This document shows positions 7,648-19,975 of a stretch of DNA of 64,000 nucleotides, in pieces; within the stretch, counting starts at the first letter, position 1; the number at the start of each line of letters is the position of its first letter. Position numbers and translations under genes: made by a program. Source of the stretch: Micromonospora zamorensis (GTDB lineage: Bacteria; Actinomycetota; Actinomycetes; Mycobacteriales; Micromonosporaceae); NCBI RefSeq assembly GCF_900090275.1, contig NZ_LT607755.1, forward strand, positions 806,001-870,000. Reading direction: 5' to 3'. Under the pieces are notes generated by a model. That model made no database searches. It was not told the origin of the DNA and saw only the letters and a program-made list of their open reading frames with translations.

Positions 7648-7712
7648 CCCTCTCCAGGGTCAGGTCCCGGTCGGCCGGGGTGCCGCGCCGGTCCGTCAGA
7701 CAGGGCTGGCGT

Positions 7713-7961
7713 TCAGTGGGAGGCGGTGGCCTGCCGGTCCGGGGTGCCCGAGCCGGCACCCCGCACCACCAACTGGTCGAGCAGGGTGCGGGTCGCCTCG
7801 GCCACGGTGGCCACCGCGGCGTCGAACGCGGCGGCGTTGTGCGCGGCGGGCGCCCGGAAGCCAGAGATCTTCCGGACGTACTGCAGCGCCGCCGCCTCGA
7901 CGTCCGCGTCGGTCACCTGCGGGGTGAACGGCTCACGCAAGGTCTTGATGCTCCGGCACAT
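7713..7961 (-). CDS. DUF2277 family protein
   Basis: Small protein of 82 residues beginning MCRSIKTLREPFTP, the characteristic DUF2277 N-terminus, followed by a helical region (DADVEAAALQYVRKISGF). Function unknown. The ATG at 7961 has AGAGGAG upstream. Longer readings back to 8045 would run into the fxsA promoter and lack a ribosome site. It is divergent from fxsA and shares its upstream region. Confidence 0.82.
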   Translation of the reverse strand: MCRSIKTLREPFTPQVTDADVEAAALQYVRKISGFRAPAAHNAAAFDAAVATVAEATRTLLDQLVVRGAGSGTPDRQATASH

Positions 7962-8010
7962 GTGCGCTCCTCTCGGGTTGCCACTCGTGGTGCCGATGGC
8001 TGTACCGACG

Positions 8011-8039
8011 GTGACACTGGGTCGATATTTGTCTATCCT
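8011..8039 (+). promoter_or_regulatory. Promoter of the FxSxx-COOH operon
   Basis: GTGACA at 8011-8016 and TATCCT at 8034-8039 are spaced by 17 bases. The spacer is locally A/T-rich (GATATTTGT) within very GC-rich DNA. A start near 8046 would give a leader of about 70 bases before the GTG of fxsA. It is the only good -10/-35 pair I see before the six-gene cluster. Confidence 0.6.
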
Positions 8040-8113
8040 GGTCACGGACCAGAGCCTTTCGAGCCATTCTCGCCGCTCGCGCCCCCAGCGCCCCGGGCCC
8101 CCGGAGACTCATT

Positions 8114-8302
8114 GTGGACCATGCCCCCACCCGCTCACCCCGTCCCGACCCAGATGACCTCGCACGCAGCCTGCACACCCCGTTGGATCGGATCGTCGTC
8201 GAGCACGCCGATCTGATCGAGGCGATCCGCAGGCGCGTCGTCGCGGGCCAATCGGTCCCGTCCGGCAGCGTGCCCGTCGCCGCCTTCAACTCGTCCATCT
8301 GA
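8114..8302 (+). CDS. fxsA: FxSxx-COOH precursor peptide
   Basis: Ribosomally made precursor of 62 residues. It ends FNSSI at the free C-terminus (Phe58, Asn59, Ser60, Ser61, Ile62), which is the defining FxSxx-COOH motif. The middle is a predicted amphipathic leader helix (LDRIVVEHADLIEAIRRRV), a likely recognition element for FxsB. Start is GTG at 8114. The stop is 3 bases from the fxsB ATG. By analogy with studied FxsB-type enzymes, the aromatic ring of Phe58 would be cross-linked to the beta carbon of Ser60 within the F-N-S tripeptide; that is inference here. Only one precursor copy is present. Confidence 0.88.
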   Translation: MDHAPTRSPRPDPDDLARSLHTPLDRIVVEHADLIEAIRRRVVAGQSVPSGSVPVAAFNSSI

Positions 8303-8305
8303 GCG

Positions 8306-10639
8306 ATGGTCTGCCGGTGCGGTGCGCCCGGAGCGGGCGGATCCTGCCGGCCGATCAGCCAGTTCGTGCTGAAGGTGCACAGTCGGTGCGACCTCAGCTG
8401 CGACCACTGCTACGTCTACCAGCACGCCGACCAGACCTGGCGGGGCCGACCGGTGCGGATGCCACCGGCGACGGTCCGCGCTGCCGCACGGCGCATCGCC
8501 GAGCACGCCCGCGAGCACGAGGTGCCGGACGTGCACGTGGTGCTGCACGGCGGTGAGCCGCTGCTGCTGGGTGCCGCCGGGCTGCGCGAGGTGCTGGCCG
8601 AGCTGCAGGCGGCGATCACCCCGTGGACGCGGCTCGACCTGCGCATGCAGACCAACGGTGTGCTGCTCGACGAGGAACTGTGCCAACTGCTCGTCGACTA
8701 CGACGTGCGGGTCGGTGTGTCGTTCGACGGCGACCGTGCCGCCAACGACCGCCACCGGATCTTCGCCCACGGCGGCAGCAGCCACGACCAGGTCCGGCGG
8801 GCCCTGGCCCTGCTCCGGCGACCGGCGTACCGCAGCAGCTACGCCGGCATCCTCTGCACTGTCGACGTCCGCAACGATCCCGACCGGGTCTACGAGGCGC
8901 TGCTGGCCGAGAGTCCGCCCCGGGTCGACCTGCTGCTGCCCCACGCCACCTGGGACCACCCACCGGAGCGTCCCGGCCCCGGCTCCACCCCGTACGCGGA
9001 CTGGCTGGGGCGGATCCACCGGCGGTGGGTGGACGACGGGCGCCCCGGGTCGATCCGGCTGTTCGAGGCGCTGATGCCGGGTGGCGGCGGCACCGAGGCG
9101 TTCGGCCTCGCGCCGGCCGACGTGCTGGTGGTCGAGGCCGACGGCACCTGGGAGCAGGTCGACTCGCTGAAGACGGCATACCATGGCGCGGCCGGCACCG
9201 GGTTCGACGTGTTCGACCATTCGGTGGACGAGGCCGCCCGGCATCCCGGGGTGGCCATCCGACAGGACGGCGTGCAGGGGCTCTGTGCCACCTGCCGGGC
9301 CTGCCCGGTGGTCGACCGTTGCGGCGGAGGCCTGTACGCCCACCGCTGGCGCACCGGCTCCGGCTTCGACAATCCCTCGGTCTACTGCGCCGACCTGCTC
9401 AGCCTGATCGACACTGTGGACGCCTACCCGGCGCCCGGCCACGTCGCGCCCAGCGTGTGGTCCGCCGCCTCTCCGGTCGACGACCTGCTGGACGACCTGG
9501 CGACCGGGCACGGGTCGCCGCAGACCGTGAGACGAATCGCCGACGACCAGTTGGCCATCACCCGGATGCTGTTGGCGGCCTGTCGGGAGTTGTCCGACAG
9601 CGCGGCCGCCTGGGAGGTGCTCGCCGACCTTGAGCTGAAGGCGCCGGAGGCGGTCCGAGCGGTCCTGGAGCACCCCTTCGTCCGCCCGTGGCTGGTGCAC
9701 CGCCTCGACCCGTCGGCCCGGTCCGGCGCCCGCGCGGCTGCCGACCCCCTGCCGGCCCTCGCCGTCGCCGCGGCCGTCCGGGTGGGCGTCCCCGTCACTG
9801 TGGACGTCCCGGTGCGGGCCGACGCGATCACGGTGCCCACGCTCGGCAGCCTGCTGCTGTCCGGTCTGGGGGAGCACGCCGAGGTGACAGTCCTGCCCGG
9901 TGGGTTCCGGGTCCGGGGCGGGTCGGCGGACCGGACCGTCCTCCTCGACACGGTCGAGCCGTCGGCCGGCTGGCGACCGGTGCGCGACGTGCCGACGCCG
10001 GCTGGTCGGCTGTCCATCGAGGACGGCGATCCGTACCGGGACTGCTACGGCCAGCCGGTGGCATCGCGCCTGGACACCCCGGCCGCGCAGGCGTTGGGCC
10101 GTACCCTGGTCGAGGCCTGGCAGATCGTGCGCCGGGACGTGCCGGCGCACGCGGCGGCGCTCGACGGCGGTCTGCGCGCCGTCGTGCCGCTGGCACCCGA
10201 CCCGGCGCGACCACTGCGCAGCGCGACCGCCCGGCACGCGTTCGGCGCGGTCGCCGTCACCCCCCATCCGGACCCGGAGACGATGGCGGTGCTGCTCGTG
10301 CACGAGTGGCAGCACGCGAAACTCGGTGCCGTGCTCGACCGGTACGACCTGGTGGCACCCGGGCACAGCCCCCGGATCACGGTGCCGTGGCGCCCCGACC
10401 CGCGGCCACCCGAGGGGGTCCTCCAGGGGGTGTACGCCCACCTGGCCGTCACCCAGGTGTGGCGGGCCCGGGCAGCGACCGACGGCGGGGAAGCGTCGGC
10501 GCACGCCGCCCGTTACCTGGCGTGGACCCGGGACGGCGCCGACGCGCTGCTGGCCAGCCGGTCGCTCACCACGGCCGGTGAGCGGTTCGTCGGTCAGCTG
10601 CGCCACGCCCTGGAGGAGACCGGTGTCGGGTCCCGATGA
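8306..10639 (+). CDS. fxsB: Radical SAM/SPASM maturase FxsB with HExxH extension
   Basis: Peptide-modifying radical SAM enzyme of 777 residues. The 4Fe-4S motif is CDLSCDHC (Cys28, Cys32, Cys35). A Cys-rich SPASM region (about 326-360: CATCRACPVVDRCGGG and a later Cys) holds auxiliary clusters. The C-terminal half (about 400-777) is a separate domain carrying HEWQH at residues 666-670, an intact HExxH zinc-hydrolase motif. FxsB-type enzymes form three-residue cyclophanes on F-x-S motifs. The extension could trim the leader or act elsewhere (inference). It begins 3 bases after fxsA and overlaps the next gene by 17 bases. Confidence 0.92.
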   Translation: MVCRCGAPGAGGSCRPISQFVLKVHSRCDLSCDHCYVYQHADQTWRGRPVRMPPATVRAAARRIAEHAREHEVPDVHVVLHGGEPLLLGAAGLREVLAELQAAITPWTRLDLRMQTNGVLLDEELCQLLVDYDVRVGVSFDGDRAANDRHRIFAHGGSSHDQVRRALALLRRPAYRSSYAGILCTVDVRNDPDRVYEALLAESPPRVDLLLPHATWDHPPERPGPGSTPYADWLGRIHRRWVDDGRPGSIRLFEALMPGGGGTEAFGLAPADVLVVEADGTWEQVDSLKTAYHGAAGTGFDVFDHSVDEAARHPGVAIRQDGVQGLCATCRACPVVDRCGGGLYAHRWRTGSGFDNPSVYCADLLSLIDTVDAYPAPGHVAPSVWSAASPVDDLLDDLATGHGSPQTVRRIADDQLAITRMLLAACRELSDSAAAWEVLADLELKAPEAVRAVLEHPFVRPWLVHRLDPSARSGARAAADPLPALAVAAAVRVGVPVTVDVPVRADAITVPTLGSLLLSGLGEHAEVTVLPGGFRVRGGSADRTVLLDTVEPSAGWRPVRDVPTPAGRLSIEDGDPYRDCYGQPVASRLDTPAAQALGRTLVEAWQIVRRDVPAHAAALDGGLRAVVPLAPDPARPLRSATARHAFGAVAVTPHPDPETMAVLLVHEWQHAKLGAVLDRYDLVAPGHSPRITVPWRPDPRPPEGVLQGVYAHLAVTQVWRARAATDGGEASAHAARYLAWTRDGADALLASRSLTTAGERFVGQLRHALEETGVGSR

Positions 10640-11447
10640 ACGGCATCTGCCCGCCCTGGGCCGTCCCCACCTTGCCGACGATCTGCGGGCGTTGGGCGTA
10701 CGCCCGGGTGTGTGCCTCCTGGTGCACTGCGGTCTGCGCCGGGTGGGCCCGCTGGAGCACGGTCCCGCGACCCTCGCCGGCGCCCTGCGGGACGTCCTCG
10801 GCCCGGCCGGCACGCTGCTGGTGCCCACCCAGACCGACGGCAACTCGACCACCTCCCGGGCCCACCTGGCGGCCGTCGCCGGGATGGACCGGGCGCAACG
10901 CGAGCGGTACGAGGCGGCGCTGCCGGGCTGGGACCGCCAGACCACGCCCTCGCAGCGGATGGGCGTGCTCGCCGAGTACGTCCGCTGTGCCCCCGGTGCG
11001 GTTCGCAGTGACCATCCCCAGACCTCGTTCGCCGCGCTCGGCCCTCGGGCCCGGCAGCTCACCGACGGCCACGATCTCACCTGCCACCTGGGAGAACGCT
11101 CACCGGTGGGTGGCCTGTACGCGGCCGACGGGCAGATCCTGCTGCTCGGCCTCGGTTACGAGGCGTGCAGCGCCCTGCACCTGGCCGAGTACCGGCTGCC
11201 GGTGCCGACGCCGGAGCGCGACTACCGCTGTTTCCGGCTCGTCGACGGCCGCCGCGTACGTCTCGACTTCCGCGGGCTCGACCTGGACGACCGCGACTTT
11301 CCGCGGGTGGGTGCCGCGCTCGACGGCACACCGATCGTCCGGCACGGGCGGGTCGGGCGGGCCCAGGCTCGCCTGCTGCCGGCGCGAGCCGCCGTGGACT
11401 TCGCGGTCGGCTGGTTCGCCGCGAATCGCCTGGCAGCGCAGCGTTGA
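10623..11447 (+). CDS. AAC(3)-family N-acetyltransferase in the FxS cluster
   Basis: Antibiotic_NAT/YokD-fold acetyl-CoA-dependent acetyltransferase, 274 residues. Recognisable segments are GVCLLVHCGLRRVG, LLVPTQT and SDHPQTSFAALG; the last contains the His of the family active site. A further segment is LLLGLGYEACSALHLAEY. The GTG start at 10623 lies inside the end of fxsB (17-base overlap), which implies translational coupling and a cluster role. Relatives acetylate the 3-amino group of aminoglycosides. Here the substrate may instead be the modified peptide or a self-protection target. Resistance should not be assumed. Confidence 0.85.
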   Translation: MSGPDERHLPALGRPHLADDLRALGVRPGVCLLVHCGLRRVGPLEHGPATLAGALRDVLGPAGTLLVPTQTDGNSTTSRAHLAAVAGMDRAQRERYEAALPGWDRQTTPSQRMGVLAEYVRCAPGAVRSDHPQTSFAALGPRARQLTDGHDLTCHLGERSPVGGLYAADGQILLLGLGYEACSALHLAEYRLPVPTPERDYRCFRLVDGRRVRLDFRGLDLDDRDFPRVGAALDGTPIVRHGRVGRAQARLLPARAAVDFAVGWFAANRLAAQR

Positions 11448-11493
11448 CGCGGGGACTACGCTGATGTTCCGGCCGCGTGGGGAGGGCGGAGGG

Positions 11494-12153
11494 GTGAGCA
11501 CAGTGGACGCACCCTCCAGACTGCGCGCCCCGCTTTTCTTCATCAGCTATTCCCGGGCCCCGGTCGGCCGCGCCACCGGCAAACCCGCCGAGTACGTCTC
11601 CCGGTTCTTCGAGGACCTCTCCGTCCACGTCAGTGAGCTGGTCGGCCCGGTGACCGGAGTGGACGCCGGCTTTCTGGACAGCTCCATCGCCGGCGGTGAA
11701 CGGTGGAGCCCGGAGCTGCTCCAGGCCGCCGGCACCTGCCAGGTCTTCGTCCCGCTGGTGTCCAGCGCGCTGCTCGGCAGTGACTGGTGCGGCCGGGAGT
11801 GGGACGCGTTCTCCCGCCGGACGATCGTCCCGCGGCACAGCTCCGCCTCGCCCCACGAGACGGCCATCGTGCCGGTCACCTGGTCGCCGACGAACGGCAC
11901 GGCGCTGCCCCGGGTGCTCCGCGACATCCAACGGTTCACCCCGACCGCCGTGCCGGATCCCGACATCGCGGTGCACTACCAGCGGGATGGGGTCTACGGG
12001 TTGCTGACCATGCAGTGGGAGAACGCGTACCGGGCGGTGGTCTGGCGGCTCGCCCAGCGGATCGTGGCGATCCACCGGTCGTACGTGGTGCAGCCCTGGG
12101 TGCCGGCGAGCGTGGACGAGCTGTGCAACCGGTTCAACGAGGAGCCGGGATGA
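11494..12153 (+). CDS. fxsC: TIR-like protein FxsC (first copy)
   Basis: TIR-like domain protein of 219 residues. It opens with PLFFISYSR, a TIR beta-strand A signature. Later segments are VDAGFLDSSIAGGERWSPEL and CQVFVPLVSSALL, matching the domain core. A helical C-terminal part follows. The GTG start at 11494 has GGAGGG about 7 bases upstream; an in-frame ATG at 11464 is the alternative. It overlaps the second fxsC by 4 bases (ATGA). Members of this family occur with FxsA and FxsB. Whether it cleaves NAD+ or only scaffolds is unknown; I did not verify a catalytic Glu. Confidence 0.82.
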   Translation: MSTVDAPSRLRAPLFFISYSRAPVGRATGKPAEYVSRFFEDLSVHVSELVGPVTGVDAGFLDSSIAGGERWSPELLQAAGTCQVFVPLVSSALLGSDWCGREWDAFSRRTIVPRHSSASPHETAIVPVTWSPTNGTALPRVLRDIQRFTPTAVPDPDIAVHYQRDGVYGLLTMQWENAYRAVVWRLAQRIVAIHRSYVVQPWVPASVDELCNRFNEEPG

Positions 12154-13421
12154 GCCCGCCGACGGACCGGCGCCGACCGGCAGCGCGCGGGACGTACTTC
12201 TTCCTCAGCTACGCCCACTCGGCACCCCCGCCGGGCGCCCGCGCCGACGCCGACGTCTGGGTCGGCCAGTTCTTCGCCGACCTGTCCGACGAGGTGCGGC
12301 GCCAGGCGCGACCGGTGGCGGGGATGCGGATTGGCTTCTTCGACCAGCACATCCCGTTGGGCGCCGACTGGAAGGCGGCTCTCGCGGAGGCGCTGGGCGA
12401 CGCCGAGGTCTTCGTTCCGCTCTACTCGCCCGGCTACTTCAGTCGCCCGTGGGCGTTGGGGGAGCAGGAGTCCTTCCGGGCCCGGCTGGCCGCCGCCGGG
12501 TCGGCCCGGCTGGCCGCCGGCCACCTCACCCCGGTGCTGTGGATCCCGTTCCCACCGTGGGAGACGCATCCGGAGCTGGACGGCGCCCTGGACCTGGGCC
12601 GGGACGTCCCGGCATACGCCGAGGACGGCCTGCGGGCGTTCTGCATGCTGGCCTCCTACCGGGCACAGTACGAGCTTCTGCTGAGCCGCCTGGCCAGCCG
12701 GATCGTGCACACCGCCGAGCGGCGACCGCTGGGTCCGTCCCGCGCGCCGGGCCTCGACGAGGTCGTCCGCCCGGGGCCGACCGACCCGGACTTCGTCGTC
12801 GCCGTCCTGGCGCCGACCCGGGACCACCTGCCGACCGACCGCGACCCCGCCGGCTACGCGGCCAGCGGCCGGCTGTGGCGACCGTACGGGCGCCGCCAGG
12901 AGCTGCCCGCCGCCGAGTACGCGGCCAGCACCGCCGAGCGGCTCGGGCTGTCCGCCCGCACGGCGGACTTCGCGCAGGCCGCCGGGCTGCTCGATCGCCG
13001 ACCGGCCGTGCTGCTTGTCGACCCGTGGATCGCGGCCTCGCCGGACGCCGCCGCGATCCTCTCCGGCCAGCTGCACGGCCTGCGGGAGTGGGTGGTTCCA
13101 CTGGTGGTCACCGACGACGACGACACCCAGGACGCCAGCCGGTGGGCGACCGAGGTGACGCAACTGCTGCACGACGCCGGCCTGCCCCAGGTCAAGCGGG
13201 CGTGCAGCATGCCGGAGTTCGTCGACCTGATGCCGGCGCTGGTCACCGAGGCTCGCCGTCAGTTCCTCAAGTACGGCCCGGTGGTTCCCTTCGAACCGCC
13301 GCCGGAGCCGGTGCCGAGCCTGCGTGACGGCCTGCCGCCGGCCGGCTCGACCGTCACCCCCGATCCCGCGTCCACGCCTGACGATCCGGCCCCATTGCGT
13401 CCCCACGGAGAAAACCGATGA
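12150..13421 (+). CDS. fxsC: TIR-like protein FxsC (second, longer copy)
   Basis: Second FxsC-like protein, 423 residues. The N-terminal TIR-like domain starts TYFFLSYAHSAPP and continues GFFDQHIPLGADWKAAL and AEVFVPLYSPGYF. A second region (about 210-390) resembles the FxsC C-terminal domain, with alternating strands and helices (DFVVAVLAPTRDHLP, PAVLLVDPWIAASPD, EWVVPLVVTDDDD). A Pro-rich tail ends the protein. It overlaps both neighbours by 4 bases. The two FxsC proteins differ in length, so they probably have different partners in one complex (inference). Confidence 0.82.
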   Translation: MSPPTDRRRPAARGTYFFLSYAHSAPPPGARADADVWVGQFFADLSDEVRRQARPVAGMRIGFFDQHIPLGADWKAALAEALGDAEVFVPLYSPGYFSRPWALGEQESFRARLAAAGSARLAAGHLTPVLWIPFPPWETHPELDGALDLGRDVPAYAEDGLRAFCMLASYRAQYELLLSRLASRIVHTAERRPLGPSRAPGLDEVVRPGPTDPDFVVAVLAPTRDHLPTDRDPAGYAASGRLWRPYGRRQELPAAEYAASTAERLGLSARTADFAQAAGLLDRRPAVLLVDPWIAASPDAAAILSGQLHGLREWVVPLVVTDDDDTQDASRWATEVTQLLHDAGLPQVKRACSMPEFVDLMPALVTEARRQFLKYGPVVPFEPPPEPVPSLRDGLPPAGSTVTPDPASTPDDPAPLRPHGENR

Positions 13422-16400
13422 ACAACGATCGCGAAGGCCAGGTCGTCACCTTCTACTCGTTCAAGGGTGGGACGGGCCGGACGATGGCGTTGGCCAATGT
13501 GGCCTGGATCCTCGCGGCCAGTGGCCGGCGGGTGCTCGTCGCCGACTGGGACCTCGAGTCACCCGGCCTGCACCGCTTCTTCCACCCGTTCCTCGACGCC
13601 GAGGCGATCCAGGGCACCAGCGGTGTGATCGACATGATCCGCGACTACGAGTGGGAGACCACCCGGGTCGACGACCGGCCGGACCGCTGGATGGAGCAGT
13701 ACGCCCGGGTGGGGCGGCACGCCTTCTCGCTGCGCTGGAACTTCCCCGACGGCGGGGGTCTGGACTTCCTCTCCGCGGGCCGGCAGAACAGCGACTATGC
13801 CGTCTCGGTGAGCGGGCTGGACTGGGACAACTTCTACAACCGGCTGGGCGGTGCGCAGTTCTTCGAAGCGCTGCGGGCGGACATGAAGCGCCAGTACGAC
13901 TTCACCCTGATCGACAGCCGGACAGGGTTGAGCGACGTCGCCGACATCTGCACACTGCACCTTCCGGACACGCTGGTCGACTGTTTCACCCTCAGCGACC
14001 AGGGCATCGACGGCGCGGCCCGGGTGGCGCACTCGGTACGCGACAGGTACCGGCGGCGTGACATCCGCGTCCTGCCGGTGCCGATGCGCGTCGACCAGGC
14101 CGAGAAGGAGCGGGCCGAGGCGGGTCGTCTGCTGGCCATGCGGCGGTTCGCCGGGTTGCCCGCGGGCATGACCGAGGCCGAGCGGCGGCGCTACTGGGCT
14201 GCCGTCGAGGTCCCGTACCGGCCGTTCTACGCGTACGAGGAGACACTGGCGACGTTCGGGGACCCGCCCGGCTCGCCGACGTCGCTGCTGGCCGCGTTCG
14301 AGACGTTGACCGGGATCCTCACCGACGGCGCGGTGACCGCGCTGCCGCTGATGGACGAGTCGGTGCGGGAGCGGGGCAAGGCCCGTTTCCGTCGACGCAC
14401 CGAGGCGATCGACGACCAGATCGTGCTCCGGTGTGCGCCGGAGGACGCCATCTGGGCCGAGTGGCTGGAGCGGGTGCTCAGCTCGGCGGGGTTGCGGGTG
14501 GTGGAGCCCACGGCCGCCGTCGGGTCCGCGGGCACGCCCGCGCCGCGCACGCTGACAGTGGTCTCGCCGGCCTACGTGGCGACGCCGTCCGGCGGTCTGC
14601 CCGACCGGGACACCAGCACCGGTTCCACGGCGCTCGCCGTGTACGTCGCCGACCTGCGCCCGCTGGCGGAGTTCCCCTCCCAGAGCTCCACCAACCTGGT
14701 CAATGTGAGCGCGGCGACCGCCGTGGAGCGGGTGTTGCGGCTGGTCGGCCGGCCGGTGCCGTCGTCTGCGGACGGCCCGGCGGGCGGGAGCACCCGTTTT
14801 CCCGGCACCGAACCGTTGATCTTCAACGCCCCCAACCGGAACGCCCGGTTCACCGGCCGGGAGGACGACCTGGCCCAGCTGCGCGCGCAACTGCAGAGCG
14901 GGGGCAGCGCGGTGGTGCTGCCGGTCGCCCTCCAGGGCATGGGCGGCGTCGGAAAGACACAGGTGGCCCTGGAGTACGTGCACCGTTACAAGACCGCGTA
15001 CGACGTGGTCTGGTGGATCGTGGCGGACCCGCCGCAGTTCGTCGACACCGCCCTGGCCGACCTCGCCAGCCGCCTCGGCATCCTCGCCGGGCCGACCGTG
15101 CCCGACACGGTCCGGTCCGTGTTGCAGGTGCTGGGCCGGGGCGAGCCGTACGAGCGGTGGCTCGTCGTGCTCGACAACGCCGAGGAGCTCGACCAGATCG
15201 AGCCCTTCCTGCCCCAGGGCCCCGGGCACGTCCTGCTGACCTCGCGCAACCGCGCCTGGGGTGACCGGGCGAACCCGATCCAGGTGGACGTCTTCAACCG
15301 CACCGAGAGCGTCGCGCACCTCGCCCAGCGGGTGCCCACGATCAGCGCCGAGGAGGCCGACCGGGTGGCCGAGGCGCTCGGCGACCTGCCGATCGCGGTG
15401 GCGGCGGCTGGCGCGTGGTTGGCCGACACCGGCACGTCGGTCGCCGACTACCTGCGGCAGATCGAGCGGCACGGCCCCAGCGCGCTCTCCGTCGAGGCGA
15501 CCTGGGACCTGTCGCTGAACCGGCTGCTCGACCAGGCGCCCGCCGCGTACCGGCTGTTGCAGCTCTGCTCGGTGCTGGCCCCGGAGATCGCGCTGGAGCT
15601 GATCTACAGCGACGAGATGGCGGCGGCCCTCGTGCCGTTCGACCCGTCGGTGTCGGAACGGCTCGTCCGCGGTGCGCTGGTCCAGCAGATCAACCGGCTC
15701 GCCCTGCTCAAACTCGACGTCCAGGGCGGCCGGGTCCAGGTGCACCGGTTGTTGCAGGCGGTCGTGCGCGACCGGATGACCGACGACGAGATCGACGCGG
15801 CCCGACACCAGGTGCACCTGGTGCTGGCGGCGTCCCGGCCCCGCGGTGACGTGGACGACCCGACCACCTGGCCCCGGCTGCGGATGCTCTGGCCGCACCT
15901 GGAGGTCTCCGAGGCGTTGAACTGCCCCGACGAGTCGGTGTGTCAGCTGCTCATCGACCGGGTCCGCTACCTGTGGCAGCGCGGCGGTCTGGACCAGGCC
16001 GACGGGTTCAGTCAGGAGGTGGACGAGACCTGGTCCGCCCGGCTCGGCGACACGCACGAAGAGGTCGAGGCGTCCGCGCTGGGTCGACAGTTGCTGCACC
16101 TGCGCTTCAACCGCGCGAACATCCTGCGCAGCCTGGGCCGGTTCGACGAGGCCCGGGACCTGGACGAGGCGGTGCTGGCCGAGCAACGCCGGCTGCTCGG
16201 CCCGATGCACCCGCACAGTCTGATGACCGCCGGCAGCCTCGGCGGTGACCTGCGCGCGCTCGGCCGGTACGCCGAGGCGCTGGAACGGGACCGGTCCACG
16301 TACGCCTCCTGGCTCCAGGTGTTCGGCGAGGACCACCCCCGGACGTTGAGCGCGGCCAACAACCTCGCCGTCTCCTACCGGCTGGTCGGCGACTACCGGT

Positions 16401-17287
16401 CCGCCCGCAGGTGGGACGACGAGGTGCACCAGCGGCGGCGGCTGGTGCTCGGCCCCACCCACCCGTACACCCTGGTCTCCGCCGTGCGTCTGGGCAGCGA
16501 CCTGCGGGAAGCCGGTGAGTACGAGCGGTCGGTCACCCTGCTGCGCACCGTGTACGACACGTACTGCGAGGTGCTCGGGCCGGACGACGGCCAGAGTCTC
16601 GCCGCGCAGGTCAACCTGGCGGTGTCACTGCGCAGCGCCGGCCGGGGAGCCGAGGCCGCGCCGATGTTCGAGACGGCCTACCGCGAGCTCGACGAACGCT
16701 TCGGACCGGACAACCCGGACACGGTGGCGTCCCGGTCGAGCCGTGCGGCGAACCTTCTGGCCGTCGGCGACGCGGCCAGGGCGTTCACGGAGATGACCGC
16801 CGTGAGCCAGGCGTACGAGGAACAGCTGCGCCTCGGCGCGGAGCACCCGCACACGCTGGCGACGCTGAGCAACATCTCCGCTGCTGAGCGCGCGCTCGGG
16901 CGCAGGTCGGATGCCCGTGCGTCGGCGGCCCGGGCCTCCGGCGAGCTGCGCAAGGTGCTCGGCCCCGACCACCCGCACACCCTTGCCGCGGACGTGAACC
17001 ACGCGGTGTGCCTCGCCGAGGAGGGGGAGTGGGACTCGGCGCGGGAGCGACTGCGGGAGACCGCCGGTCGCCTGGCCACGGTGATCGGCGCGGATCACCC
17101 CGACACGCTGCGCTGCCGCGGTGATCTCTCCCTGGTGTCGAGGCGGGCCGGTGGCGAGGCCCCCGCCGAGGACGTCGGCGCGGTGGCGGACCGGCTGGCC
17201 GAGGTGATCGGCCCGGAGCATCCGACGGTGCAGACCCTGCGTGAGCGGCGGTTCGTCGTCCGGGTGATCGACCCGCACACGATCTGA
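13418..17287 (+). CDS. fxsT: FxSxx-COOH system TPR/NB-ARC protein FxsT
   Basis: Large multidomain protein of 1289 residues. Residues 1-300 are a MinD/ParA-like ATPase with the deviant Walker A KGGTGRT (16-22). Residues about 328-440 are an FxsC/TIR-like domain. An NB-ARC (STAND) ATPase follows from about 473, with Walker A GMGGVGKT near 508, Walker B WLVVLDN near 580 and LLTSRN near 606. A winged-helix region comes next. From about 885 to the end there are roughly eight kinesin-light-chain-like TPRs, marked by LGPxHPxTL. STAND proteins act as ligand-gated switches; here the TPRs would be the sensor. It is the last gene of the operon. Confidence 0.92.
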   Translation: MNNDREGQVVTFYSFKGGTGRTMALANVAWILAASGRRVLVADWDLESPGLHRFFHPFLDAEAIQGTSGVIDMIRDYEWETTRVDDRPDRWMEQYARVGRHAFSLRWNFPDGGGLDFLSAGRQNSDYAVSVSGLDWDNFYNRLGGAQFFEALRADMKRQYDFTLIDSRTGLSDVADICTLHLPDTLVDCFTLSDQGIDGAARVAHSVRDRYRRRDIRVLPVPMRVDQAEKERAEAGRLLAMRRFAGLPAGMTEAERRRYWAAVEVPYRPFYAYEETLATFGDPPGSPTSLLAAFETLTGILTDGAVTALPLMDESVRERGKARFRRRTEAIDDQIVLRCAPEDAIWAEWLERVLSSAGLRVVEPTAAVGSAGTPAPRTLTVVSPAYVATPSGGLPDRDTSTGSTALAVYVADLRPLAEFPSQSSTNLVNVSAATAVERVLRLVGRPVPSSADGPAGGSTRFPGTEPLIFNAPNRNARFTGREDDLAQLRAQLQSGGSAVVLPVALQGMGGVGKTQVALEYVHRYKTAYDVVWWIVADPPQFVDTALADLASRLGILAGPTVPDTVRSVLQVLGRGEPYERWLVVLDNAEELDQIEPFLPQGPGHVLLTSRNRAWGDRANPIQVDVFNRTESVAHLAQRVPTISAEEADRVAEALGDLPIAVAAAGAWLADTGTSVADYLRQIERHGPSALSVEATWDLSLNRLLDQAPAAYRLLQLCSVLAPEIALELIYSDEMAAALVPFDPSVSERLVRGALVQQINRLALLKLDVQGGRVQVHRLLQAVVRDRMTDDEIDAARHQVHLVLAASRPRGDVDDPTTWPRLRMLWPHLEVSEALNCPDESVCQLLIDRVRYLWQRGGLDQADGFSQEVDETWSARLGDTHEEVEASALGRQLLHLRFNRANILRSLGRFDEARDLDEAVLAEQRRLLGPMHPHSLMTAGSLGGDLRALGRYAEALERDRSTYASWLQVFGEDHPRTLSAANNLAVSYRLVGDYRSARRWDDEVHQRRRLVLGPTHPYTLVSAVRLGSDLREAGEYERSVTLLRTVYDTYCEVLGPDDGQSLAAQVNLAVSLRSAGRGAEAAPMFETAYRELDERFGPDNPDTVASRSSRAANLLAVGDAARAFTEMTAVSQAYEEQLRLGAEHPHTLATLSNISAAERALGRRSDARASAARASGELRKVLGPDHPHTLAADVNHAVCLAEEGEWDSARERLRETAGRLATVIGADHPDTLRCRGDLSLVSRRAGGEAPAEDVGAVADRLAEVIGPEHPTVQTLRERRFVVRVIDPHTI

Positions 17288-17352
17288 CCGGGGTTGGTCC
17301 GGCGGGGTGGGTCAGGTCCGCCTCGCCGGGCCGAGCACTGAACGACTGTCGG

Positions 17353-18285
17353 TCAGACCCGCGGGGTGGTCGCGAGGTCCGGCGTGGCCAGCCAGCTGAG
17401 GGTCTGCGGCAGGATCTCCACAGCGCCGAAGTGCGCGGCGCCGGGCTGCACCTGGACCTCGGCCCGCGAGATCCGCGAGGCGAGCCAGTGGGAGTGCTCC
17501 ACCGGCGAGAAGCGGTCCTGCTCGCCGTGCCAGAGCCGGACCTCCGCGCGGATGGCGCTCAGGTCGAACCCCCAGCCACGCCGTATCGCCAGCACGTCGT
17601 CGATCCAGCCCTCGGGGCCGTGCCGCAAAGCCTCGGAGTACATGTCGGTCAGCAGTCGGCGGATCGCGACGTCGTCGACGACCCGGATGTCCTCGTCGGG
17701 CAACTGGGGGCGCAGGAAGTCCAGCAGCGTCATCGGGTCCCGCCGGGCCTCCTCCGCGCGGACCTTCAGGTTGAGCGTGAGCTCGGCCAGGTCCTCGTCG
17801 GCCTGCCCGTAGTCCTCCACGTTCGACTCGGCCATCCCGGCGTACCAGTCCAGGTCGGGTGCACCGGCCGGGGCGAGCCCCACCAGCACGGCGGCCCGGG
17901 TGACCCGGTCCGGCAGCAACGCCGCACAGGCCAGGGCGTGTGGACCGCCACCGGACCGGCCCACCACCGCGAACCGCTCGATGCCGAGGTCGTCGGCGAT
18001 CGCCGCCACGTCGGCGGCGGCGTCGGCGACCCGCCGACCCTCGTGCCGGTCGGAGTCGCCGTAACCGGGCCGGTCGTAACAGACGAGGTGCACGCCGAGG
18101 CGGTAGACGACGATGCCCCGGGGCCGGGGGCCGCTGCGACTCCCCGGGGTGCCGTGCAGCAGGAAGACCGCAGGACCGTCCGGCGAGCCGGAGGTCTCCA
18201 CCGCGAGGTGCCGCCCCTCCGGGGTGGTGACGGTGCGCTGTGCCGCATCTTGTCGCGTCACGGTTGGCCTCCCGCGGGTCGTCAT
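17353..18285 (-). CDS. Alpha/beta hydrolase
   Basis: Soluble alpha/beta-hydrolase of 310 residues. The oxyanion-hole motif is LLHGTPGSR. The nucleophile elbow is VVGRSGGGPHAL with the Ser. The acid lies in VRLWHGEQDRFSPVEH, and the catalytic His in PGAAHFG. Substrate unknown; the family spans esterases, epoxide hydrolases and dehalogenases. The ATG at 18285 has GGGGGAG directly upstream, which decides against longer readings. It converges on fxsT with a 65-base gap lacking a strong hairpin, and diverges from miaB. Confidence 0.88.
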   Translation of the reverse strand: MTTRGRPTVTRQDAAQRTVTTPEGRHLAVETSGSPDGPAVFLLHGTPGSRSGPRPRGIVVYRLGVHLVCYDRPGYGDSDRHEGRRVADAAADVAAIADDLGIERFAVVGRSGGGPHALACAALLPDRVTRAAVLVGLAPAGAPDLDWYAGMAESNVEDYGQADEDLAELTLNLKVRAEEARRDPMTLLDFLRPQLPDEDIRVVDDVAIRRLLTDMYSEALRHGPEGWIDDVLAIRRGWGFDLSAIRAEVRLWHGEQDRFSPVEHSHWLASRISRAEVQVQPGAAHFGAVEILPQTLSWLATPDLATTPRV

Positions 18286-18481
18286 GTGCTCCCCCGTGAA
18301 TGGAGCCGCGCATTGTCGGCGCTGAGTGCAAAGCCCCCGAAACCGCCCAGAACACATTCTTGTTGTGCAGCGTACTGCCCGTCGTGGATGCCCGCTATGG
18401 GCCGCCGGGTCAATGCCGGTGGGTTGGGGCCGCCGAGCGGGCCGCTACCCTGGTAGCCCGAGGGGAAGGGGCACCAAGAGG

Positions 18482-19975
18482 GTGGCTAGGACCTACAACG
18501 TCGTGACGTACGGCTGCCAGATGAACGTGCACGACTCTGAGCGCATCTCCGGCCTGCTCGAACAGGCCGGCTACGTGCGCGCGGTGCCCGCCGACGACAC
18601 CCCGGACATCGTCGTCTTCAACACCTGCGCCGTCCGGGAGAACGCCGACAACCGGCTCTACGGCAACCTCGGTCGGCTGCGCCCCGTGAAGGACAAGCAC
18701 CCCGGGATGCAGATCGCGGTCGGCGGCTGCCTGGCCCAGAAGGACCGGGGCGAGATCGTCCGCAAGGCGCCCTGGGTGGACGTCGTCTTCGGCACCCACA
18801 ACATCGGCTCGCTGCCGGTGCTGCTGGAGCGGGCCCGGCACAACGCCGCCGCCGAGGTGGAGATCCTGGAGTCCCTCGACGTCTTCCCCTCCACGCTGCC
18901 CACCCGCCGCGAGTCCACGTACGCCGGGTGGGTGTCGATCTCGGTCGGCTGCAACAACACCTGCACGTTCTGCATCGTGCCCGCGCTGCGCGGCAAGGAG
19001 AAGGACCGCCGTCCCGGCGACATCCTCTCCGAGGTGCGCGCGCTGGTCGACGAGGGCGTGCTGGAGGTGACCCTGCTCGGGCAGAACGTCAACTCCTACG
19101 GGGTGGAGTTCGGCGACCGGTACGCGTTCGGCAAGCTGCTGCGGGCCTGCGGTGACATCGACGGGTTGGAGCGGGTCCGGTTCACCAGCCCGCACCCGAA
19201 GGACTTCACCGACGACGTGATCGCCGCGATGGCCGAGACGCCGAACGTCTGCCACTCGCTGCACATGCCGTTGCAGTCCGGCTCCGACGACGTGCTCCGG
19301 GCGATGCGCCGGTCCTACCGCTCCGAGCGCTACCTGGGGATCATCGAGAAGGTCCGGGCGGCGATGCCGGACGCGGCGATCACCACCGACATCATCGTCG
19401 GCTTCCCGGGTGAGACCGAGGCCGACTTCCAGCGCACCCTGGACGTGGTCCGCGAGGCCCGGTTCTCCTCGGCCTTCACCTTCCAGTACTCGAAGCGCCC
19501 CGGCACCCCCGCAGCGACCATGGACGACCAGTTGCCCAAGCAGGTCGTGCAGGAGCGCTACGAGCGGCTGATCGAAACCGTCGAGGAGATCACCTGGGCG
19601 GAGAACAAGCGCCTGGTGGGCGAGACCGTCGAGGTGCTGGTCGCGGTCGGCGAGGGCCGCAAGGACGAGCGCACCGGCCGGATGTCCGGTCGGGCCCGCG
19701 ACGGCCGGCTCGTGCACTTCGCGACCGACACCGCGGACGGGGAGTCGCTGGCCGACCAGATCCGCCCGGGTGACATCGTGCACACCACGATCACGTACGC
19801 CGCGCCGCACCACCTCAACGCCGACGGCGCGCCGGTGGCGCACCGGCGCACCCGGGCCGGCGACGCGGCCGAGGCGGGGCGCTCCCCGCGTACCCCCGGG
19901 GTGTTGCTCGGTCTGCCCACGATCGGCGCACCGCCGGTCGTTGCCGCACCGACCGCCGGCTGCGCCACCCACTGA
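18482..19975 (+). CDS. miaB: tRNA-2-methylthio-N6-dimethylallyladenosine synthase MiaB
   Basis: Methylthiolates i6A37 in tRNAs reading UNN codons, acting after MiaA. The 497-residue protein has an N-terminal UPF0004 domain ([24 protein letters not shown]; three Cys for the auxiliary cluster). A radical SAM core with [11 protein letters not shown] follows, then a TRAM domain. The C-terminus carries an extra Ala/Pro/Thr-rich tail of about 45 residues. The GTG at 18482 begins the conserved [13 protein letters not shown]. miaA lies about 4.5 kb downstream, the usual actinobacterial arrangement. Confidence 0.94.

Follow-up and report, generated by a model that had tools for sequence, protein, structure and literature searches.

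Stand-alone FxSxx systems that include an AP-ATPase with a MinD-like domain have been described by Kaur et al. (2020; PMC7159879), and the section of that paper devoted to them suggests that the peptide is a toxin or a signal; a link between a peptide signal and an NB-ARC/TPR protein is in part already proposed there. Two precedents bear on the chemistry. MscB (IPR026335) links C4 of Phe to the beta-carbon of Ser, according to the available part of PMC11002830, and a fused HExxH protein acts as an alpha-ketoglutarate (aKG)-dependent beta-hydroxylase, not as a peptidase, according to that of PMC12636437. As far as searches of the open-access literature reach, nothing was found on the loci treated here beyond PMC7159879, and no tested role for FxSxx systems. 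The subject of this account is an FxSxx locus in a window of 64,000 nucleotides from Micromonospora zamorensis (NZ_LT607755.1, positions 806,001 to 870,000; coordinates below count from the first letter of this window), where the peptide precursor FxsA, the radical SAM/SPASM enzyme FxsB, an acetyltransferase, two TIR-like FxsC proteins and the switch protein FxsT are joined by an alpha/beta-hydrolase. The kind of system is known in outline; its gain and loss as one unit and the seventh gene go beyond the six genes of an earlier first-pass annotation and, as far as the literature searches reach, are new.

The extent of the cassette is given by sites between DUF2277 and miaB at which it is missing. 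Among 61 Micromonospora genomes miaB was found at 1e-150 in 59, of which 49 also have a close DUF2277 and 10 lack it; with three of the 49 broken by contig ends, 46 are scorable, and the two markers are separated by 81-317 bases in 34 of them and by 9.9-13.6 kb in the other 12. Seven empty sites aligned with the window match it on the left up to 7972 (five sites), 7976 (one) or 7962 (one), and on the right from 18506 (six) or 18491 (one). The recognised genes between the markers in the window are the seven named above only. The empty sites thereby give a parts list for one subtype, from which the right seven genes can be identified for a test of function. In a near relative (G505, locus L160) the gap is 317 bases and its sides match the window to 8010 and from 18233; because the start of the hydrolase gene (its first codons) remains, the whole cassette was most likely lost there in one deletion. 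Other members of the genus have homologues of FxsBH, at 53-57% identity, at other places in the genome. An origin from a defence island or plasmid was rejected after searches of phage and plasmid records: FxsT had no match at 1e-20 in 50,697 phage records, and FxsB relatives at 1e-40 were found in 9 plasmid or large-replicon records, all below 60% identity.

A constant chromosomal position within one clade, together with the lack of an FxsT match in the phage records, would suit developmental or housekeeping signalling, with differentiation or cell-cycle control, not death or defence, as the output; the relevant part of PMC7159879 also describes such systems as preponderant in multicellular prokaryotes. 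The patchy presence (12 of 46 sites filled) and the 53-57% homologues elsewhere in the genus are, however, more like an accessory conflict system, and the PADLOC matches, of the MinD part of FxsT to PDC-M28B (80 bits) and, weakly, of FxsB to viperin (30 bits), favour defence, if anything. A developmental role is a distinctly unlikely reading. The acetyltransferase and both FxsC proteins have no PADLOC match.

The first-pass annotation had called the six genes of 8114-17287 a "complete" system, which does not hold: FxsB was not recognised as a two-domain enzyme, and the alpha/beta-hydrolase gene, whose 3' end lies 65 bases beyond that of FxsT and so just outside that interval, was left out. The hydrolase belongs to the FxSxx system as its seventh gene. 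In 119 regions collected via FxsB and not via FxsT (a few overlap on one contig), a convergent hydrolase follows FxsT in 24 of the 25 MinD-type regions with a fused FxsB (L080 is without it), in 1 of the 26 MinD-type regions with a separate or no HExxH domain, and in none of the 68 others; in L070, the single exception, the reading frames of FxsB and HExxH overlap. Similarly, in 46 sampled genomes of the family, each of the 12 hydrolase matches better than 1e-75 has an FxsT match no more than 0.9 kb away, and none of 15 weaker ones adjoins an FxsT match at 1e-90 or below (compared by reading). Of 36 fused sequences on the FxsB tree, 34 group in a single clade with support 1.0 (L102 and L133 fall outside), so the hydrolase counts point to a single origin, not to several, with the linkage retained in at least three families (f1, f18, f20). 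Linkage across at least three families also contradicts, for FxsA, FxsB, FxsC, FxsT and the hydrolase, the idea that chance alone put genes of unrelated function side by side, an idea for which no supporting point was found and which is hardly credible.

The hydrolase matches PF00561 (69 bits) and its nearest PDB structure is 9wlv (8.4e-50). An alignment of 60 sequences, some of them near-duplicates, shows conserved Ser, Asp and His motifs, presumably the catalytic triad. With 34 bits the hydrolase is also above the cut-off (27) of PF12146, the S33 aminopeptidase model, so a peptidase role could be considered. Neither the stand-alone section nor the hydrolase passages of PMC7159879 tie a hydrolase to stand-alone FxSxx systems, and according to a figure legend there, peptide-modification systems and alpha/beta-hydrolase-caspase pairs exclude one another in VMAP systems.

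FxSxx systems are common in actinobacteria, FxsB being above its cut-off in 69 of 345 sampled genomes of the class. In the 46 family genomes, FxsT is present in 23 of 23 with FxsB vs 6 of 23 without it (Fisher 1e-7, genomes treated as independent), and 29 of 31 FxsB matches, a split match counted once, lie within 15 kb of FxsT; co-occurrence of the genes in related genomes, which had been set beforehand as a test, is supported by these counts. All such tests take genomes or regions as independent, for which counts of changes on the FxsB tree are a partial cure. An NB-ARC or MinD open reading frame (ORF) is present in 108 of the 119 regions, which span up to 20 kb around FxsB (own models, at least 20 bits), and FxsC accompanies FxsB in 50 of 51 MinD-type regions vs 1 of the remaining 68. 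About 10 changes in MinD state are counted on the FxsB tree, vs a shuffled minimum of 34, and the pairing of FxsC with MinD is therefore not one inherited event. EAD2 or VMAP-M0 domains were found in 6 of 9 MinD-less FxsTs scanned and TIR_2 in cis in 3 of 8 from another scan (L143, L146, L150), with none found in the rest of either. Two Kitasatospora loci (L038, L039) carry an FxsC-type TIR fused to NB-ARC-TPR with a normal FxsC-FxsT pair beside it. The whole reads as a constant core of peptide, modifying enzymes and NB-ARC-TPR protein with exchangeable effector couplings, as judged from domain content.

Some loci depart from this layout in other ways. L104 resembles the Kitasatospora pair in having, near one FxsB, a TIR-bearing NB-ARC ORF beside a MinD-type FxsT. 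The M. zamorensis chromosome itself holds a second, different FxSxx system (L041, genome positions 258001-276000) with a separate HExxH gene, a convergent FxsT and FxsC, and an FxsA that ends in WNSAM and passes the TIGR04268 cut-off (44.6 bits); no acetyltransferase or hydrolase was found in that region. L007, L015 and L016 have a tandem FxsT pair behind one FxsA-FxsB-AAC-FxsC set, the first 64-67% and the second 87-91% like the FxsT of the window, with no hydrolase found adjoining.

The two TIR-like proteins of the first-pass annotation are confirmed as FxsC1 and FxsC2 by NF040588. A Glu at the TIR catalytic position, which we take to be the catalytic residue, in keeping with the alignment with solved TIRs, is present in 25 of 25 FxsC1 sequences and, for FxsC2, in 38 of 38 FxsT-seeded and 35 of 40 diverse sequences, two sets that overlap. 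The FxsC2 profile aligns with solved TIRs up to this Glu (best 4lzp, E 0.023). The giant FxsT scores 975 bits with NF040586 (cut-off 300) and 138 with NF047398 (cut-off 90), matches PF00931 (NB-ARC) and PF13424 (TPR_12), and keeps what we take to be the Walker A, Walker B and MHD-like motifs by which STAND, or AP-ATPase, proteins are recognised. Its MinD, NB-ARC and TPR parts stand as first annotated. The TIR-like part escapes detection by Pfam (E 0.14); it is suggested by our own profile of the region, which matches the FxsTs with clear Pfam TIR_2 domains in L143, L146 and L150, a support that is partly circular because the profile includes L038 and L039, where the TIR of this region is clear. 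In the window and its close kin, no acidic residue stands at the catalytic position of this part, in a poor alignment, and some distant MinD-type FxsTs have E-L-W there; a loss of catalysis is a suggestion from these alignments.

For FxsB, the first-pass description of a radical SAM/SPASM enzyme beginning 3 bases past the end of the precursor (at 8306) proved correct. It scores 543 bits with TIGR04269 (cut-off 370) and combines a CxxxCxxC motif at 28, a SPASM-type family match and an F-x-S substrate tail, the features expected of a cyclophane enzyme; the nearest PDB relative of the radical SAM part is ChlB (9gm3, 5e-69). The C-terminal half scores 153 bits with the mod_HExxH model TIGR04267 (cut-off 40), is related to 22nu (1.5e-45) and ChlH (8s5f, 2.6e-6), and carries HEWQH at 666-670, a motif kept as HE[WF]QH in 35 of 35 aligned fused FxsBs. 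If IPR026335 is the FxsB family, as we assume, the enzyme probably staples the FxsA tail into an F-x-S cyclophane, by analogy with MscB. The earlier statement that FxsB-type enzymes form three-residue cyclophanes is backed by the literature on MscB (available part of PMC11002830). The reading of HExxH proteins as metallopeptidases, taken from the stand-alone section of PMC7159879, is held less likely than that of hydroxylases given the available part of PMC12636437.

The 62-residue precursor ending in FNSSI was found as first annotated (8114-8302). It scores 18.8 bits with the FxsA model TIGR04268, below the cut-off of 28, and the cluster, rather than the model match, is filed as a member of the FxSxx-COOH systems because motif, place and homologues fit. 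Of 29 homologues found, 28 were read (a 39-residue piece, P0030, is omitted) and all 28 end in FNSSI; some carry FXSXX-COOH as their source name. With FxsT as the query, 38 loci were fetched, the nearest named ones being from Micromonospora; 36 are scorable for FxsB (L004 and L028 reach contig ends), and an ORF ending in F.S.. lies just upstream of FxsB in 33 of the 36 (not in L013, L032 or L040), a count that is not independent proof because the pattern search targeted the expected tail. No overall FxsA count is claimed, since calling with a hidden Markov model of the leader missed many loci, partly because open frames above 260 residues were excluded. Kitasatospora loci L036, L038 and L039 have tails (VAAFNSSI) identical to those of Micromonospora and FxsTs only 39-45% alike, and in MinD-type loci L139, L144 and L145 two FxS-like cores follow one another in the FxsA tail. 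The idea that tail length marks the effector class was tried and dropped. In 29 regions from the 46 family genomes MinD-type tails mostly end two residues past the motif (exceptions L042 and L061), and none of 8 readable MinD-less precursors (L045 to L058) does; in the wide set, MinD-less L090, L094, L097, L101 and L121 end in AGFxSSI-COOH, and the double cores of MinD-type L139, L144 and L145 break the pattern too.

Other cyclophane peptides are secreted antibiotics, and FxsA might likewise be exported as an antibiotic or pheromone after trimming by the hydrolase, a possible S33-type peptidase, with FxsT as an AfsR-like regulator of production; the NB-ARC region of FxsT does match AfsR, at 49 bits, far below the cut-off. 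Yet scans with NCBIfam and Pfam models recognised no transporter in the seven-gene cassette, the limits of which are known, similar scans (NCBIfam-type and Pfam) found no DNA-binding domain in FxsT, and the TIR proteins would be left without a place. Export is a very doubtful proposition, and because no transporter is recognised an intracellular ligand or brake is favoured.

All six genes of 8114-17287 are present where the first-pass annotation had put them. Five match curated NCBIfam models above cut-off or a Pfam family, so the family names given earlier hold for FxsB, FxsC and FxsT, whose scores support the identification as an FxSxx-COOH system, and lack model support for FxsA. The three overlapping junctions reported measure 17, 4 and 4 nucleotides; the other two are gaps of 3 and 46. 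FxsC1 and FxsC2 overlap by 4 nucleotides in 25 of 25 loci and FxsC2 and FxsT in 19 of 38, with a range of -17 to +19 across all 38, the start codons having been chosen by script. A single promoter had been proposed, and the one sigma-70-like site found (0.1 expected) is kept as TGACA-17-TAT(C/T)CT in 18 of 18 aligned upstream regions, namely the window and 17 of the 38 fetched loci. Beyond its -10 box, at 8040-8080, many of the 18 share a conserved stretch (CACGGAxCAGAGCC) that could be a regulator site. Nonsynonymous rates are below synonymous ones (dN < dS) in 11 comparisons, L011 being excluded as apparently out of frame (dN 1.66). The acetyltransferase belongs to the fold family PF02522 and falls below the cut-off of all five AAC(3) models matched, the aminoglycoside 3-N-acetyltransferase equivalog included (167.5 bits vs 270); its substrate need not be an aminoglycoside because its nearest solved relative is FrbF (3sma, 8e-44). 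It is found in 20 of 51 MinD-type vs none of 68 other FxsB regions.

Coordinates of the cassette, its genes and its flanks in the window
Feature	Position	Strand	Remarks
Cassette, stretch missing from empty sites	7977..18505 (approximate)		between DUF2277 and miaB; holds seven genes
DUF2277 gene	7713..7961	-	left flank, outside the system; PF10041 98 bits
Promoter-like site	8011..8039	+	GTGACA-17-TATCCT; sole such site found in 7700-17700
FxsA precursor, 62 residues	8114..8302	+	GTG start; CGGAG before GTG; tail AAFNSSI-COOH
FxsB fused to HExxH domain	8306..10639	+	radical SAM/SPASM 17-371; HExxH half, TIGR04267 602-765
AAC(3)/Antibiotic_NAT-family acetyltransferase	10623..11447	+	PF02522 250 bits; GTG at 10623; 17-nucleotide overlap with FxsB
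FxsC1, TIR only	11494..12153	+	NF040588 160 bits (cut-off 130); Glu at TIR catalytic position (WCGREW)
FxsC2, TIR and FxsC C-terminal domain	12150..13421	+	NF040588 151 bits (cut-off 130); TIGR04276 65 bits; Glu kept (WALGEQ)
FxsT	13418..17287	+	MinD-like (KGGTGRT), degenerate TIR-like, NB-ARC (GMGGVGKT), TPR
Alpha/beta-hydrolase	17353..18285	-	convergent with FxsT; ORF open to 18357, ATG 18285; conserved GRSGG, HGxxDxFxP, AHF
miaB	18326..19975	+	right flank; listed ORF, true start probably more internal; TIGR01574 471 bits

The interpretation to which we incline, tentatively and with something short of even confidence, is an intracellular STAND switch of the trigger form, in which FxsT senses the FxsA tail and, depending on the state of that tail, activates the FxsC TIR proteins. 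FxsB would join Phe58 to Ser60 in a three-residue cyclophane; the fused HExxH half may hydroxylate, and in this subtype a further group might be added, removed or trimmed by the AAC-like acetyltransferase and the hydrolase. The completed tail would stay in the cell bound by the TPRs of FxsT, and its state would decide whether this NB-ARC ATPase oligomerises; the degenerate MinD/TIR front would dock both FxsC proteins, which would act as effectors that consume nicotinamide adenine dinucleotide (NAD) or make a nucleotide signal, and so stop growth. FxsC is pointed to as the effector by its pairing with MinD and by the fusions. That the peptide is the signal read by FxsT, as first suggested, gains comparative fit from the same pairing and fusions and from the lack of a recognised transporter, and we infer it on that footing; we likewise infer tail binding by FxsT, the NADase activity, the docking and the writer and eraser roles. 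The fuller version, an immune-type switch whose own stapled peptide is the ligand of a STAND receptor, written by FxsB, HExxH domain and acetyltransferase, erased by the hydrolase and coupled to effectors (FxsC TIRs, a TIR in cis, EAD2) that are exchanged in evolution around a constant modified-peptide core, is a good deal to ask of the data and seems unlikely to be right in all its parts. If the peptide does gate the switch, the chemistry of ribosomally synthesised and post-translationally modified peptides would be joined to NLR-like signalling.

Several points weigh against the trigger switch. Tail length does not track effector class in the wide set, and one line of support for a tail-reading receptor is lost with it. 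The aligned Glu is absent from 5 of 40 diverse FxsC2 sequences, and the TIR matches of FxsC2 are weak, beside equally weak ABC-transporter matches of its C-terminal part. In the HExxH half, a His of ChlH aligns with a Gln of FxsBH and a near-invariant His (712) lies five residues on; that the ChlH residue is a third ligand is a guess on our part, and the domain may be inactive, the NCBI "inactivated" FxsBH model scoring 177 bits, below its cut-off of 225. The acetyltransferase is absent from 31 of 51 MinD-type regions, and 43 of 78 FxsT matches, drafts included, have no FxsB within 15 kb. This last count tells also against a brake, in which modified FxsA would hold FxsT off as an antitoxin-like marker of self and lost modification, through iron-sulphur damage, S-adenosylmethionine (SAM) shortage or phage shut-off of translation as proposed triggers, would fire FxsT and FxsC. 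The tail could report the state of the cell in this way because its chemistry needs SAM and perhaps aKG and O2; the order of genes in one operon with coupled starts (precursor and modifying enzyme first, TIR proteins and FxsT last) and the gain or loss of the cassette as a single unit agree with a brake, and the sole deletion seen, in G505, removed the whole operon at once and is uninformative on the order of loss. A brake seems improbable, if still worth serious thought.

Thoeris and other TIR defence systems have a TIR protein with a conserved Glu, as does FxsC; the match to type III ThcB4 reaches 13 bits against a cut-off of 220, and no Thoeris model is among the PADLOC matches. The VMAP ternary systems with FxSxx peptides, as presented in the relevant part of PMC7159879, share the core of FxsB and NB-ARC/TPR protein and are without FxsC, whereas the window has MinD/TIR parts and FxsC; vWA/MoxR genes were not searched for here. 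The stand-alone systems of the same paper share the FxSxx peptide, the radical SAM/SPASM enzyme, a zincin-like HExxH protein and an NB-ARC/TPR protein with a MinD-like domain. The text on them regards the MinD domain as inactive and assigns the cleavage of FxsA to the zincin-like protein, taken to be a peptidase; neither paired FxsC proteins nor an AAC-type enzyme nor an alpha/beta-hydrolase is mentioned in that section. The triceptide, or 3-CyFE, enzymes represented by MscB (available part of PMC11002830) have the same FxsB domain and F-x-S motif, and a Phe-Ser cyclophane is expected here as well; unlike MscB, the enzyme of the window, whose cyclophane is a prediction, has an HExxH half as part of the same chain and is associated with a STAND protein. 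The same two-domain fusion is seen in the fused radical SAM/aKG-HExxH enzymes called ChlBH (available part of PMC12636437), from which the window enzyme differs in that its HExxH half is much closer to 22nu and its possible third ligand is not that of ChlH.

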